A stretch of DNA of 64,000 nt from Haloprofundus salilacus (GCF_020150815.1 NZ_CP083723.1:2170001-2234000); one strand, 5' to 3'. Positions 58,122 through 63,262 are shown, numbered from the stretch's first letter. Numbers and translations are program-made. Notes: generated by a model from the letters alone, not told the origin.

Positions 58122-58982
58122 TCAGTCGAGGTAGTCGTCGACGAGCAGCTCGACGCGCTCGCGCGTCTCCTCGGGGATGGCGTCGGCGGGCGTGTTGATG
58201 GTTCCTTCGAGCGCCGTGTGTGCGCCGCAGTCGAACTCGTCGGGAAGCGTTCGGATGGCCTCTTCGACGGTGCGCTTGATGGCCTCCTGGTTCTTCTCAG
58301 CGTTCTCCAGCACCTCCTCGAGCGTCACCTCGTGGTCCCGCTTCCAGACGTCGTAGTCGGTGACGCCCGCGACGGTGGCGTAGGCGATCTCGGCCTCGCG
58401 GGCGAGTTTCGCCTCTGGCACCGCCGTCATGCCGACGACGTCCCACCCCTGGGCGCGGTAGAACTCGCTCTCGGCGCGCGTCGAGTACTGCGGTCCCTCG
58501 ATGCAGACGTACGTGCCGCCCTCCTGCACGTCGGCGTCGGTGGCCGACTCCGCGGCGTCGACGAGGTGCGAGACGAGTTCGGGGCTGTACGGCTCCGTGA
58601 TGGGCTGGTGGACGACGATGCCGTCGCCGAAGAACGTCGAGGTACGGTGTTTGGTGCGGTCGAAAATCTGGCCCGGAACAACGAGCGTCCCCGGCGGAAG
58701 CTCCTCCTTCAGGCTGCCGACGGCGTTGGAGGCGAAGATGTACTCGACGCCCAGTTTCTTGAACGCGTAGATGTTCGCGCGGTACGGCAGATTCGTCGGC
58801 GAGCGGCCGTGTTTCGGGCCGTGGCGCGGCAGAAACGCTACCTCGCGGCCCGTATCCCCGAACTCGCCGATGGTGACCGGGGCGCTCGGGTCGCCGTAGG
58901 GGGTCTCGATCTCCTCTTCGCGGGTGTTCGACAGGGGAAGCGCCTCGTAGATTCCGCTTCCGCCGATGAAGCCGATGGTCAT
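58122..58982 (-). CDS. mtnP: S-methyl-5'-thioadenosine phosphorylase
   Basis: Splits methylthioadenosine to adenine and methylthioribose-1-phosphate for methionine salvage. A 286-residue PNP-family enzyme: MTIGFIGGSGIYEALPL, the phosphate site FLPRHGPKHGRSPTNLPYRAN, ASNAVGSL, the substrate loop CIEGPQYSTRAESEFYR and VVGMTAVPEAKLAREAEIAY. ATG 58982 is chosen because a CTTTAGG element lies about 20-25 nt upstream (reverse strand) and MTIGFIGG is the family start. A decayed piece of this gene lies at 60265-60345 beside the second FemAB-like gene. Confidence 0.94.
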   Translation of the reverse strand: MTIGFIGGSGIYEALPLSNTREEEIETPYGDPSAPVTIGEFGDTGREVAFLPRHGPKHGRSPTNLPYRANIYAFKKLGVEYIFASNAVGSLKEELPPGTLVVPGQIFDRTKHRTSTFFGDGIVVHQPITEPYSPELVSHLVDAAESATDADVQEGGTYVCIEGPQYSTRAESEFYRAQGWDVVGMTAVPEAKLAREAEIAYATVAGVTDYDVWKRDHEVTLEEVLENAEKNQEAIKRTVEEAIRTLPDEFDCGAHTALEGTINTPADAIPEETRERVELLVDDYLD

Positions 58983-59073
58983 GGTCGTACTCGCGTGAGT
59001 CTCCACCTAAAGAACGTTGATTTGCGGCGTCTCGCTCGCCCCCGAGCCGAATTATCGAGGCGGTACTCCGTCG

Positions 59074-60150
59074 TCAGAGGTTGAGTCGAGGTTTGAGCTG
59101 GTTTCTGACGCGCGGTTTGACCTGTTCATCGAGACGGGTCCCGAACTGTTCCTGGAGCCAACTCGCCAACTGGATACTCGGTCGCTGTCGCGTCAGTGTG
59201 TACATCGGGACGAGTTCCGGCGAGAGTCTCGCTTTCGCGCCGCTCACTCGGGGGTTTAACGCGCCGTGGAGATTGTATCGGGTCACCCCGTCTCGCTTGG
59301 CGTCCTGGATGGTTCGCCAGTCGAGCAGTTCGTTGGCAGGAACGTCCTTCTGGGGTTTCGCCCTTCCTTTCCACGAGTAGGCCATGTCACCGAACTGAAT
59401 GGAGATCATTCCGCCCACGTAGTCGCCGTCGAGTCGGCAGACGTACGGGCGTACCTGTCCCTCGGGAAACGCGTCCACGTACTCCATAACTCGCTCCGGA
59501 GACGAGTCGAAGTAGTCGATGTCGGACTCCTCGAACCGTTGCCAGAGGTGGTCGACGATCCGACGGGCCTCCGCTCTCCCGCCGACTTCGACCGAACATC
59601 CGGCTTCCTCGGCCTCCCGGACACCGGACCGCATGGAGTTCGAAAACGAGTTCTCGATCTCTTCGAGGTCGCGCGTGAGGTCGACGACGTACGTCGCGTC
59701 CATCTCAACGTCGAAGTCGTTCCACACCCACGGCCGGAAGTCCGGATACCGGTCGCTCGTCTGAATCACGATGCGGTCGGGCGGGTCGCTCTCGTCGAGC
59801 CACGACAGACAGCCCTCGACGAATCTCCGGTGTCGTTTCTCCTGCTTTCGCGTCTTCAGCTTCTCGTAGTTCAGGAGCACCGGACCGAGTTTTCTGATGG
59901 AAGTCGATTCTGGCGGCGACTTGATGAGTCGAAGTGGACCCTTTTCGGTTTCGAAGACGGGAAGAAGTCCGACCGGTTCCTCGCCTTTGTACCCGACGAG
60001 CGGATGAAGGGTGGCACCCGCTTCGGCAGCCGTCAGTCGGAGTATCTCGAACTGGTGAAACGGCGTTCCCATCGACGACTGTTCGACCCACGAGTCCCAG
60101 TTGTCCTCGGTATCTGACGTCTCGGAGAGTCGCGCGACTGATATCGACAT
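59074..60150 (-). CDS. FemAB/GNAT-like aminoacyl- or acyltransferase, copy 1
   Basis: A 358-residue protein of the double-GNAT FemAB-like type (BioF2-like acetyltransferase domain). The N-terminal segment SSMGTPFHQFEILRL, HPLVGYKGEEPVGLLPVFET and the central SNSMRSGVREAEEAGCSVEV are typical. The C-terminal GNAT half has VRPYVCRLDGDYVGGMISIQ and then the FemAB signature WKGRAKPQKDVPANELLDWR plus YNLHGALNPRVSGAKA. Such proteins in archaea are often linked to surface glycan or peptide modification. A nearly identical paralog lies upstream at 60360. Substrate unknown. Confidence 0.82.
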   Translation of the reverse strand: MSISVARLSETSDTEDNWDSWVEQSSMGTPFHQFEILRLTAAEAGATLHPLVGYKGEEPVGLLPVFETEKGPLRLIKSPPESTSIRKLGPVLLNYEKLKTRKQEKRHRRFVEGCLSWLDESDPPDRIVIQTSDRYPDFRPWVWNDFDVEMDATYVVDLTRDLEEIENSFSNSMRSGVREAEEAGCSVEVGGRAEARRIVDHLWQRFEESDIDYFDSSPERVMEYVDAFPEGQVRPYVCRLDGDYVGGMISIQFGDMAYSWKGRAKPQKDVPANELLDWRTIQDAKRDGVTRYNLHGALNPRVSGAKARLSPELVPMYTLTRQRPSIQLASWLQEQFGTRLDEQVKPRVRNQLKPRLNL

Positions 60151-60264
60151 ACGGAACGGTCAATCGACGTGCCCATGTAACATTTCTACGGAGAAGGAGT
60201 ATGTCGGGACCGCCGTGAGGTGACGACTCGGCGAGTGAGTTTATTTTCGACAGTTAGTCGAGAC

Positions 60265-60345
60265 ATCCGGCGAGGTAGCCGCCGACTCCGCGGCGTCGGA
60301 GGCGAAGAGGTACCCGACGCCCAGTTTCCTGAACGCGTCGGTTCC
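60265..60345 (-). pseudogene. Decayed mtnP fragment between the duplicated genes
   Basis: In minus-strand frame this reads DAFRKLGVGYLFAS then DAAESAATSPDV. The first part equals mtnP residues 72-85 (YAFKKLGVEYIFAS), the second resembles residues 142-152 (DAAESATDADV). The stretch between is deleted. It lies just past the stop of the second FemAB-like gene, as mtnP lies past the first, so it is a leftover of a tandem duplication covering both genes. Confidence 0.65.
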
Positions 60346-60359
60346 GCGTAGTACCGTTT

Positions 60360-61490
60360 TCACAATCGTCTCTTCAGCCGAACTAGTCTCTCTCCCGCGT
60401 CAAACCGTCGTTGCAGTCGTCGCAGAACGGCCGGCGACCGCTCGCCCGAGGCGAGACCAGTACGCAACGCCGAAGACGCGTTCTCGACCTGTTCTTGGAG
60501 CCACGTCCCGAGTTCGAGAGTCGGATGCTGTCGCGTCAACTTGTACATCGGGACGAGTTCCGGCGAGAGCCTCGCTTTCGCGCCGCTGGTTCGCGCTTCC
60601 AGCGCACCGTGGAGGTTGTAGCGCGACGTTCCCCCCCGTTTTTCGTCCTGGATGATCCGCCAGTTGAGGAGTTCGTTCGCCGGGACGTCCGCCAGCGGTC
60701 TCGCCCCTCCTTTCCACCACCACGTCGTGTCGCCGAATCGGAGCAGCATCTTCCCGCCGACGTACTCGCCGTCTTTCAGACAGACGTAGGGGCGTACCTG
60801 CCCGTCGGGGAACGCGTCCACGTAGTTCATCACCCACTCCGGAGAGGAGTCGAAGTACTCGATGTCGGACTGCGCGAACCGCTGTTCGACGTGCTCGGCG
60901 ATGCGACGGGCTTCCGACCTGCCGCCGACTTCGACCGAGCACCCGGCCTCCTCGGCCTTTCGGACGCTCCGCCGGACGGACCCCGAGAACGAGCGCTCGA
61001 TATCGTCGAGGTCGCGTTCGAGGTCGACGACGTACGTCGCGTCCATCTCGACGTCGAAGTCGTTCCACACCCACGGTCGGAAGTCGTCGTACCGGTCGTT
61101 CGTTTGAACGAGCGTACGGTGGGGCGAACAGCGTTCTTCGATCCACGCTAAACACTCGTCGACGAACCGGGAATTTCGCTTCTCTCGCTTCCGCGTCTTC
61201 AACTCCTCGTGGTTCAGCAGCACCGGGCCGAGCTTTCGGACGCTGACCGCCTCGGGAGGGGATTTCACGATGCGAAGCGGGCCCTTGTCCGTTTGGAAAA
61301 CGGGGAGAAGCCCGACGGGTTCTTCGCCTTTGTATCCGACGAGCGGGTGGAGCGTCGCGTCCGCTTCGGTCGCTATCACCTGGAGTATCTCGAACTGGTG
61401 AAACGGCGTCCCCATCGAGGACCGCTCGACCCACGAGTTCCAGTCGTCGGCATCCGACGTCTCGGAGAGTCGTGCGACCGATATTGACAT
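60360..61490 (-). CDS. FemAB/GNAT-like aminoacyl- or acyltransferase, copy 2
   Basis: A 376-residue paralog of the gene at 59074 with the same start MSISVARLSETSD and most motifs (HPLVGYKGEEPVGLLPVFQT, WVWNDFDVEMDATYVVDL, DVPANELLNWRIIQDEKR, YNLHGALEARTSGAKARLSP). It differs by substitutions such as WWWKGGARPLADV for the YSWKGRAKPQKDV segment. A C-terminal basic extension of about 20 residues ends LVRLKRRL. Upstream DNA also matches copy 1. Divergence points to a duplication that is not recent. Role as for copy 1. Confidence 0.82.
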   Translation of the reverse strand: MSISVARLSETSDADDWNSWVERSSMGTPFHQFEILQVIATEADATLHPLVGYKGEEPVGLLPVFQTDKGPLRIVKSPPEAVSVRKLGPVLLNHEELKTRKREKRNSRFVDECLAWIEERCSPHRTLVQTNDRYDDFRPWVWNDFDVEMDATYVVDLERDLDDIERSFSGSVRRSVRKAEEAGCSVEVGGRSEARRIAEHVEQRFAQSDIEYFDSSPEWVMNYVDAFPDGQVRPYVCLKDGEYVGGKMLLRFGDTTWWWKGGARPLADVPANELLNWRIIQDEKRGGTSRYNLHGALEARTSGAKARLSPELVPMYKLTRQHPTLELGTWLQEQVENASSALRTGLASGERSPAVLRRLQRRFDAGERLVRLKRRL

Positions 61491-61807
61491 ATGAAATGAT
61501 CAGTTGATGTCCATTTGTAGTATTTCTCCGTACGATCGGTATGTCACGTTCGCCGTGATGTGTCGGGTCGACGACCAAATCGGGTCTCGACGGATGCCCT
61601 TCGTCCGGCGAACCGGTCGAAACGACGGAGTTGCGTACGGTCGAAACGACGGGGTCGCGTGCTGCCGAAACGACGACGTGGCGGCGCGGACGCCTCCGTT
61701 CCGGCCGAACTCGCCGGAACTCCCAAAACTGCCGCTATCTTCCGGCAATCCCGACTGATTCGTGATATCTACTATCACGAGATTTGAAGTAGTTTGACGC
61801 GTTTCAC
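61491..61807. other. Intergenic region with a tandem repeat before the second MATE gene
   Basis: About 317 bp. The first 90 bp resemble the DNA upstream of FemAB copy 1. A 24-bp tandem repeat lies at 61614-61685. Frames of 84-92 codons exist on both strands across it, but their repeat content and base use do not support a real gene. Confidence 0.5.
61614..61685. repeat. 24-bp tandem repeat, three imperfect copies
   Basis: Units start CGGTCGAAACGACGGAGTTG (61614), CGGTCGAAACGACGGGGTCG (61638) and CTGCCGAAACGACGACGTGG (61662). The core GAAACGACG is constant. Confidence 0.75.
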
Positions 61808-63262
61808 GTGACAGTGACAGCGCCCTCTTACGAGAGCGAGTTAACGGACGGCGACCTCGTCAGGCCGATGCTCCGGTTAGCGGTGCCGATGGTCGTCATC
61901 CAGCTCCTCCAAGTGATGTACAACGTGGCCGACACGTTCTGGTTGGGTCTCCTCTCGGCGAACGCCGTCGGCGCGCTGAGCCTCGCGTTCCCGATGATCT
62001 TCTTTCTCATCTCCATCGGCGGCGGGTTCACCGCCGCGGGGACGATTCTCGTCGCGCAGTACACCGGCGCCGACAGCGAGGGCTCGGCGGATCTCATCGC
62101 CGGGCAGACGATATCGTTCGTGACGCTGCTGGCTATCGCTATCGGGATTCTCGGCTTCTTCCTCACCGACCCGATGCTATCGCTGCTGCCGACGGACGCC
62201 CAGACGGGGAGCGACATCGTCCCGCTGGCGGGCGACTACATGCGCCTGTTCTTCCTCGGATCGCCGTTCCTCTTCGGCTTCTTCATCTTCTCGTCGCTGA
62301 TGCGCGGCTACGGCAACACGCGGGTCCCGATGCTGGTAATGGTCGTCAGCGTCGCCATCAATGTCGTCCTCGACCCGCTTCTCATCTTCGGCGTCGGGCC
62401 GTTCCCACGCCTCGAAATCGAGGGCGCGGCCATCGCGACGATCCTCGCCAGAGCCGTCGCCGCGGCCATCGGGATGTACGTCCTCTTCGGCACCGACGTC
62501 GGCCCAGACGTGCGTTTCGAGCATCTCCCGCTCCAGTTCGACCGCGTCCGCGACATCGTCTCGCTCGGCGTGCCGACAGCGCTCGAACAGTCGACGAGCG
62601 CGCTCGCGATGATTCTGATGACCGCGATGGTCGCGACGTTCCCCCCGGCAGTCGTCGCCGCGTACGGTCTCGGCAACCGCCTCACGTCGCTCATCTTCCT
62701 CCCGGCGATGGGGATGGGCCAGGCCATCGACGCCGTCGTCGGCCAGAACCTCGGTGCGGGCAAACCGGAGCGGGCGGCGCGTGCGGCGAAACTCGCGACG
62801 AAACTCGTCGCCGTCGTGTTGCTCCCGTTCGCCGTCGTCGCCGCAGTCACGCCCGAACCCATCGTCGCCGTCTTCCTCGGCGCCGGCGGTCCGCGGGCGG
62901 CGGAGACCATCGTCCACGCGAGCGACTACCTCCGCATCGCGTCGGTGATGTTCGTCTTCATGGGCGTGCTGCAGGTGATGCTCGGGACGTTCCGCGGCGC
63001 GGGCAACACGAAGACGGCGCTCGTCATGTCGGCGATCACGCTGTGGGTCGTCCGCCTGCCGGCGACGTACGTGCTCGTCTTCGTCGAAGGCTGGGCGGAG
63101 ACGGGTATCTGGGTCGCCGTCGCCCTCGGCGACATCGGCGGGGCTATCGTCGCCGTCGCGTGGTTCACCCGCGGCACGTGGAAGAGCGCCGTCGTCGACA
63201 CCGACGAAGGAGAGTCGTCGAAGAGCGAGTGCGCCGCCGACCGGACGCCGATCGACGACTGA
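61808..63262 (+). CDS. MATE-family efflux transporter (second copy)
   Basis: A 484-residue MATE exporter with twelve helices. LVRPMLRLAVPMVVIQLLQV, NVADTFWLG, GTILVAQYTGADSEGS and FMGVLQVMLGTFRGAGNTKT are family marks. It belongs to a different subgroup from the exporter at 47612: NVADTFWLG instead of NLADMFWVG, with other loops, so the two are not recent duplicates. GTG 61808 is the only good start. It lies divergent from the FemAB-like genes. Substrate unknown. Confidence 0.92.
   Translation: MTVTAPSYESELTDGDLVRPMLRLAVPMVVIQLLQVMYNVADTFWLGLLSANAVGALSLAFPMIFFLISIGGGFTAAGTILVAQYTGADSEGSADLIAGQTISFVTLLAIAIGILGFFLTDPMLSLLPTDAQTGSDIVPLAGDYMRLFFLGSPFLFGFFIFSSLMRGYGNTRVPMLVMVVSVAINVVLDPLLIFGVGPFPRLEIEGAAIATILARAVAAAIGMYVLFGTDVGPDVRFEHLPLQFDRVRDIVSLGVPTALEQSTSALAMILMTAMVATFPPAVVAAYGLGNRLTSLIFLPAMGMGQAIDAVVGQNLGAGKPERAARAAKLATKLVAVVLLPFAVVAAVTPEPIVAVFLGAGGPRAAETIVHASDYLRIASVMFVFMGVLQVMLGTFRGAGNTKTALVMSAITLWVVRLPATYVLVFVEGWAETGIWVAVALGDIGGAIVAVAWFTRGTWKSAVVDTDEGESSKSECAADRTPIDD

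Follow-up and report, generated by a model that had tools for sequence, protein, structure and literature searches.

A FemABX-like tandem pair beside mtnP in a Haloprofundus genome is older than the sampled species of the genus

Introduction

Among described proteins, those closest to the genes treated here include the FemABX peptidyl transferases, which have a double-GNAT fold, and the FemAB family of XrtA/PEP-CTERM system-associated proteins (TIGR03019), which is linked to exopolysaccharide loci. Haloarchaea are, to our knowledge, without peptidoglycan, so the acceptor of a FemABX-like enzyme in these organisms must differ from that of FemABX. The key residue of FemX is Lys305 (PMC12945691), and the GNAT fold is also found in aminoacyl-tRNA-dependent transferases such as Sba18/Sbb17, DhpH-C and VlmA (PMC12945691). 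Our search found no literature linking FemAB to haloarchaea, and the titles and abstracts that combine FemABX with archaea held nothing on point.

Gene conversion is efficient in Haloferax volcanii and has been documented in polyploid haloarchaea, and interspecies recombination is likewise documented in this group (PMC8223754, where the Haloferax hybrids of Naor et al. 2012 are cited). Here we analyze two adjacent FemABX-like genes, F1 and F2, that lie between a MATE-family transporter gene and mtnP in a Haloprofundus genome.

Results

Layout of the locus

The window, the whole stretch of 64,000 nucleotides that was analysed, is G000:C1:2170001-2234000 of a haloarchaeal genome, and window positions are used as coordinates throughout. 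Read along the minus strand, F2 (61490-60360) comes first, followed by a short scrap of mtnP, F1 (60150-59074) and mtnP itself (58982-58122). The features are:

58122-58982, minus strand: mtnP (S-methyl-5'-thioadenosine phosphorylase), intact, with 58982 taken as its start; TIGR01694 MTAP, 296 bits against a cut-off of 274.85
59074-60150, minus strand: F1, the inner FemAB-like double-GNAT gene, 358 aa; open reading frame, PF13480, diagnostic columns and structural model
60151-60234, minus strand: upstream region of F1, homologous to that of F2; 55/84 identical
60281-60338, minus strand: mtnP piece, codons ~72-85 (60298-60338) and ~142-147 (60281-60297); similarity to the resident mtnP
60360-61490, minus strand: F2, the outer FemAB-like double-GNAT gene, 376 aa; open reading frame, PF13480 and alignments
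61491-61574, minus strand: upstream region of F2, common to F1; repeat search and gapped alignment
61808-63262, plus strand: MATE-family transporter gene, bounding the FemAB slot on its other side; PF01554

Both F1 and F2 belong to PF13480 (Acetyltransf_6), with 58.7 and 55.6 bits respectively against a cut-off of 22. Their third-position GC content (75-79%) is somewhat low, the neighbouring genes having 82-91%. Two further features were seen around the block. The MATE-F2 intergenic region contains three head-to-tail 24-bp units (61614-61685), 71-88% alike, which by eye are absent from the corresponding gaps of the other genomes; and two DUF7344 genes (PF24035; 57546-57965 and 63319-63648) flank mtnP, the FemAB-like genes and MATE, one on each side.

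F1 and F2 are tandem homologues

As the original prediction held, F1 and F2 are tandem homologues that share upstream DNA. The two align by blastn at 76.7% identity over 1105 nt, upstream DNA included, and the repeat search recovered a 300-nt stretch (74%) together with a 5' block of 132 nt (73%). In the upstream 84 bp the ungapped identity of 55/84 is accompanied by a gapped score of 28.0, compared with at most 5.5 in shuffled sequence. The pair has the highest overall pairwise identity that we observed (74% aa). Both genes have been kept, again as had been proposed: both are intact and under purifying selection (dN/dS ~0.26).

The slot in related genomes

The genus comparison comprised five Haloprofundus genomes, namely the window genome (G000), G001, G002 (H. 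marisrubri), G003 and G004. Synteny by tblastn placed a FemAB-like gene between MATE and mtnP in G001, G002 and G003; in G004, and in G025, G005 and G032 from other genera, MATE adjoins mtnP with nothing between them. The empty slot in G004 and in the other genera shows that the FemAB genes were inserted. Apart from H. marisrubri, the only exception, none of 80 named haloarchaeal loci had a FemAB gene adjoining mtnP.

The content of the slot differs between the species. G003 has an intact inner gene and, ~25 bp upstream of it, a remnant of the outer gene in which codons 1-47 are fused in frame to codons 284-376. In G001 an intact inner gene is accompanied by a shorter remnant, its first ~16 codons fused to an outer-type C-terminal tail. 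H. marisrubri carries a single gene of the outer type, with the long outer-type C-terminus. Both genes are intact only in the window genome among the five. As to the same duplication in relatives, G001 and G003 have an outer remnant and an inner gene, G002 one gene only and G004 neither. The in-frame deletion leaves the G003 remnant (L075 5178-4777) as an open frame of 134 codons, which may be expressed as a mini-protein or be a recent loss.

The F1-F2 split predates the sampled species

Synonymous divergence between Haloprofundus species, measured on smc, scpA, mtnP and mate, ranges from 0.24 to 0.54, and the inner genes of G001 and G003 differ by 0.30; since this lies within the species range, there is no raised rate at the FemAB locus. 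F1 and F2 differ by 0.78 (0.60-0.99), more than the species do, so their split is older than the sampled species. Rather than being closer to one another than the species are, as copies of a lineage-specific duplication should be, they form a pair that predates these species, and a simple duplication in the window genome, as first proposed, is not supported, in view both of this divergence and of the outer remnants of G001 and G003. It had also been stated in advance that homologs older than the divergence of the relatives and sitting apart would speak against the duplication; older they are, by divergence and by remnants, whereas the copies stand in tandem and not apart.

The divergence of F2 from the H. 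marisrubri gene is 0.91 (0.72-1.17), where 0.38-0.54 would be expected of vertical orthologues of these species, and that of F1 from the same gene is 1.11. The excess for F2 is a sign of recombination or of exchange across lineages. With support values of 53-66 the species tree comes close to a star, and the gene losses can therefore not be put in order.

F1 and F2 look like mosaics

Alignments and diagnostic columns show that F1 joins an outer-type start to an inner-type C-terminus (RPSI.LA.W.Q...PRLxL), and that F2 has an outer-type start and the long outer-type C-terminus. Inner-like stretches occur at codons ~57-129 and 329-340 of F1 and at codons ~229-262 of F2. When the two genes were set against the inner and outer types in a quartet, 34 sites joined F1 with F2, 27 joined F1 with inner and F2 with outer, and 28 joined F1 with outer and F2 with inner. 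The two conflicting classes are clustered along the gene (cusum P 0.0011; runs P 0.015), and one of the seven pairs tried, F2 with the inner gene of G003, showed a run of matches over codons 235-246 (P 0.0025). Such clustered conflicting signal is the pattern of gene conversion or mosaic paralogues; it is a stronger point than single columns, which are weak because an inner or outer state may in some cases be ancestral. F2 clusters with the inner genes in the protein tree (98/94), leaving F1 outside, so that the two are not sisters, and a joint F1+F2 clade is disfavoured, not rejected (AU 0.106). On this sequence pattern, both genes look like mosaics of the inner and outer types.

A possible small internal duplication was also seen in the C-terminal tail of F1 (59119-59144), where TRLDEQV stands beside SWLQEQF; the segment matches 60486-60511 of F2 out of register.

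A little-decayed fragment of mtnP between F2 and F1

Between the stop of F2 and the upstream region of F1 lies a scrap of mtnP, in mtnP order and orientation. The repeat search gave 48 nt at 92%, the genome search matched it to the resident mtnP with E = 4e-13, and its local score of 50.6 exceeded all of 500 shuffles (at most 31.5), so that chance similarity is ruled out. The absence of a significant alignment to mtnP had been named beforehand as a possible refutation; with significant similarity in conserved order, this is instead an mtnP pseudogene fragment, exactly where a duplicated FemAB-mtnP unit would place it. As for its extent, predicted as 60265-60345 with residues 72-85 joined to 142-152, the clear core is 60281-60338, with codons ~72-85 joined to ~142-147; toward F2 a weak similarity with small gaps reaches ~60354, and the match at 60265-60280 is poor.

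The F2-F1 gap offers neither a hidden gene nor a structured RNA, there being no start codon in the mtnP frame by inspection and a folding z-score of -0.22. Further apparent traces of mtnP, in the MATE-F2 gap of the window genome (26.0; shuffles 21.5) and in the gaps of G001, were discarded as just above shuffles and gap-ridden. Elsewhere, two full-length mtnP matches ~140 kb apart were seen in G020 (G020:C10), and in G057:C1 an mtnP match is split over two neighbouring pieces. The resident mtnP itself is 95-97% identical in amino acids to the single copies of the other Haloprofundus genomes.

The core of the scrap has 3 differences from the resident mtnP in 58 bp, a fourth mismatch of the repeat finder falling on its internal junction and hence not counted. 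Had the scrap evolved freely since F1 and F2 split, 17.6 differences would be expected from half the F1-F2 synonymous divergence (P 2e-6), and 11.5 from a milder clock based on half the upstream divergence (P 0.0015), both P values being somewhat optimistic since the stretch was picked as best-matching. It is therefore far too intact for free DNA dating from the FemAB duplication, and the decay over that whole period assumed in the original prediction is not supported. Either a second mtnP stayed intact until late, or the scrap came later, through a joining of lineages or as repair filler. The position, order and orientation of the scrap favour a tandem unit; no such support comes from the relatives, as none of the five Haloprofundus species showed a second intact mtnP at this site. 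In G001 and G003 the space between outer remnant and inner gene holds no mtnP piece.

Fold and predicted role

An AlphaFold2 model of F1 (pLDDT 89.5) contains two GNAT domains in one chain and matches FemX by Foldseek (E ~1e-13, TM 0.69-0.71). The Pfam FemAB family (PF02388) has a gathering score of 24, which F1 with 19.9 bits does not reach and F2 does not match at all; we therefore refer to both as FemABX-like and not as FemAB members. Lys306 of F1, invariant in 32 homologues and set in a YKAKF-like motif, may be the counterpart of the key lysine of FemX, the profile alignment ending before that residue.

At the locus itself no role is apparent, and mtnP and MATE give no clue. Distant relatives are clustered with genes for UDP-GlcNAc 2-epimerase, UDP-sugar dehydrogenase, DegT aminotransferase, oxidoreductase and glycosyltransferase, and others lie near nucleotidyltransferase and UDP-sugar dehydrogenase genes. 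The modification of surface glycans or peptides that had been suggested for these proteins is plausible by analogy, given the FemX-like fold and the surface-glycan clusters of the relatives: F1 and F2 may decorate surface glycans or peptides by placing an aminoacyl or acyl group, with aminoacyl-tRNA as the probable donor, on an amine of a glycan or peptide precursor at the cell surface. It is possible that their substrates are distinct. FemX-fold GNAT genes in or beside apparent surface-glycan clusters were also noted at two haloarchaeal loci (L195 3552-12737 and L193 9721-17520).

Discussion

The history that we favour, with a little better than an even chance, is that of an old tandem pair that was lost piecemeal in relatives and recombined in the window genome. 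F2 and F1 would be the outer and inner members of a FemABX-like pair that already stood between MATE and mtnP when the sampled Haloprofundus species parted. Internal deletions would then have removed most of the outer gene in G001 and G003, one outer-type gene would have been left in G002, and G004 has neither. In the window genome the copies appear to have been mixed, the simplest route being gene conversion or some other recombination between them, possibly with alleles of other lineages; since polyploid haloarchaea are documented to undergo gene conversion (PMC8223754), no new mechanism is needed. The scrap may be the last trace of a second mtnP between F2 and F1, which would have come free of constraint recently relative to the FemAB duplication. 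Several observations stand against this history: the outer line is not plainly vertical, as judged from the excess divergence of F2 from the H. marisrubri gene; the near-star species tree gives the losses no order; F1 bears an outer-type start and upstream region that are unexpected for a plain inner orthologue; and none of the five species showed a second intact mtnP here.

Alternatively, F1 and F2 may be long-separated alleles of a single MATE-FemAB-mtnP slot, brought together recently when two Haloprofundus chromosomes recombined unequally, so that F2 with part of its mtnP came to precede F1 with its own mtnP, after which the extra copy decayed. Such a joining would account at once for genes that look old beside a scrap that looks young, for the distance of F2 from H. 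marisrubri beyond species divergence and for the somewhat low GC3, and it would draw on recombination processes known in haloarchaea (PMC8223754). However, G001 and G003 already have an outer-inner tandem with matching C-terminal types, so tandem copies existed without such an event, and at the few sites variable in the genus the scrap has the state of the resident mtnP, though these states are mostly ancestral. We regard the joining of lineages as a minority possibility.

Roughly the same modest chance goes to an origin of the scrap apart from the FemAB pair, as two short patches copied during break repair from the resident mtnP 1.5 kb away. This would suit a scrap that is short, nearly undecayed and made of two collinear patches, in a genus whose other sampled members have no second mtnP and in which the outer remnant and inner gene of G003 are separated by those ~25 bp alone; yet a tandem unit would lead one to expect the scrap just where it lies, past the stop of F2 and beside the duplicated upstream region, with the order and orientation of mtnP, all of which would be chance under repair. 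The original prediction of a FemAB-mtnP unit duplicated in the lineage of the window genome alone, after which the extra mtnP decayed and the FemAB copies diverged, fits that same arrangement and the shared 84-bp upstream region, the high F1-F2 identity and the unrejected joint clade, but is decidedly unlikely in the face of an F1-F2 divergence about twice that of the species, the outer remnants, the C-terminal types common to several species and a scrap with 3 differences where ~18 or ~11.5 were expected.

The old tandem pair corrects the natural reading of a tandem repeat, since what appears to be a private duplication would be an older pair, lost piecemeal in relatives and mixed here. As a case of gene-family evolution it is well documented and ordinary in kind. 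It draws attention to the FemX-fold proteins of haloarchaea, a large set that seems to have been little studied, and raises the question of whether aminoacyl-tRNA-dependent transferases decorate surface glycans or peptides in archaea. We think it rather unlikely that the MATE-mtnP interval is more generally a variable slot for FemABX-like surface-modifying transferases, with gain, loss and inter-lineage recombination of alleles or copies outpacing the divergence of the species; if it were, mosaic acceptor specificities would be expected in a group without peptidoglycan.

Compared with known systems, F1 and F2 resemble tandem paralogues under gene conversion in the mosaic pattern between adjacent copies, and differ from them in being well diverged with short tracts, for which neither donor nor direction can be fixed. 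With the FemABX peptidyl transferases (Weissella viridescens FemX, 1NE9/4II9; S. aureus FemX, 6SNR, and FemA, 1LRZ) F1 shares the double-GNAT fold (TM 0.67-0.71) and a weak profile match over the second GNAT domain, whereas identity is ~12-13%. The match to the XrtA/PEP-CTERM-associated FemAB family is weak and partial (25.2 and 21.6 bits), far under the 260-bit cut-off. Finally, the best folds for F1 include 9wqx/9wqy (target-normalised TM 0.74-0.78) among the GNAT-fold aminoacyl-tRNA-dependent transferases, which serve natural-product synthesis, whereas F1 and F2 have no natural-product cluster near them.
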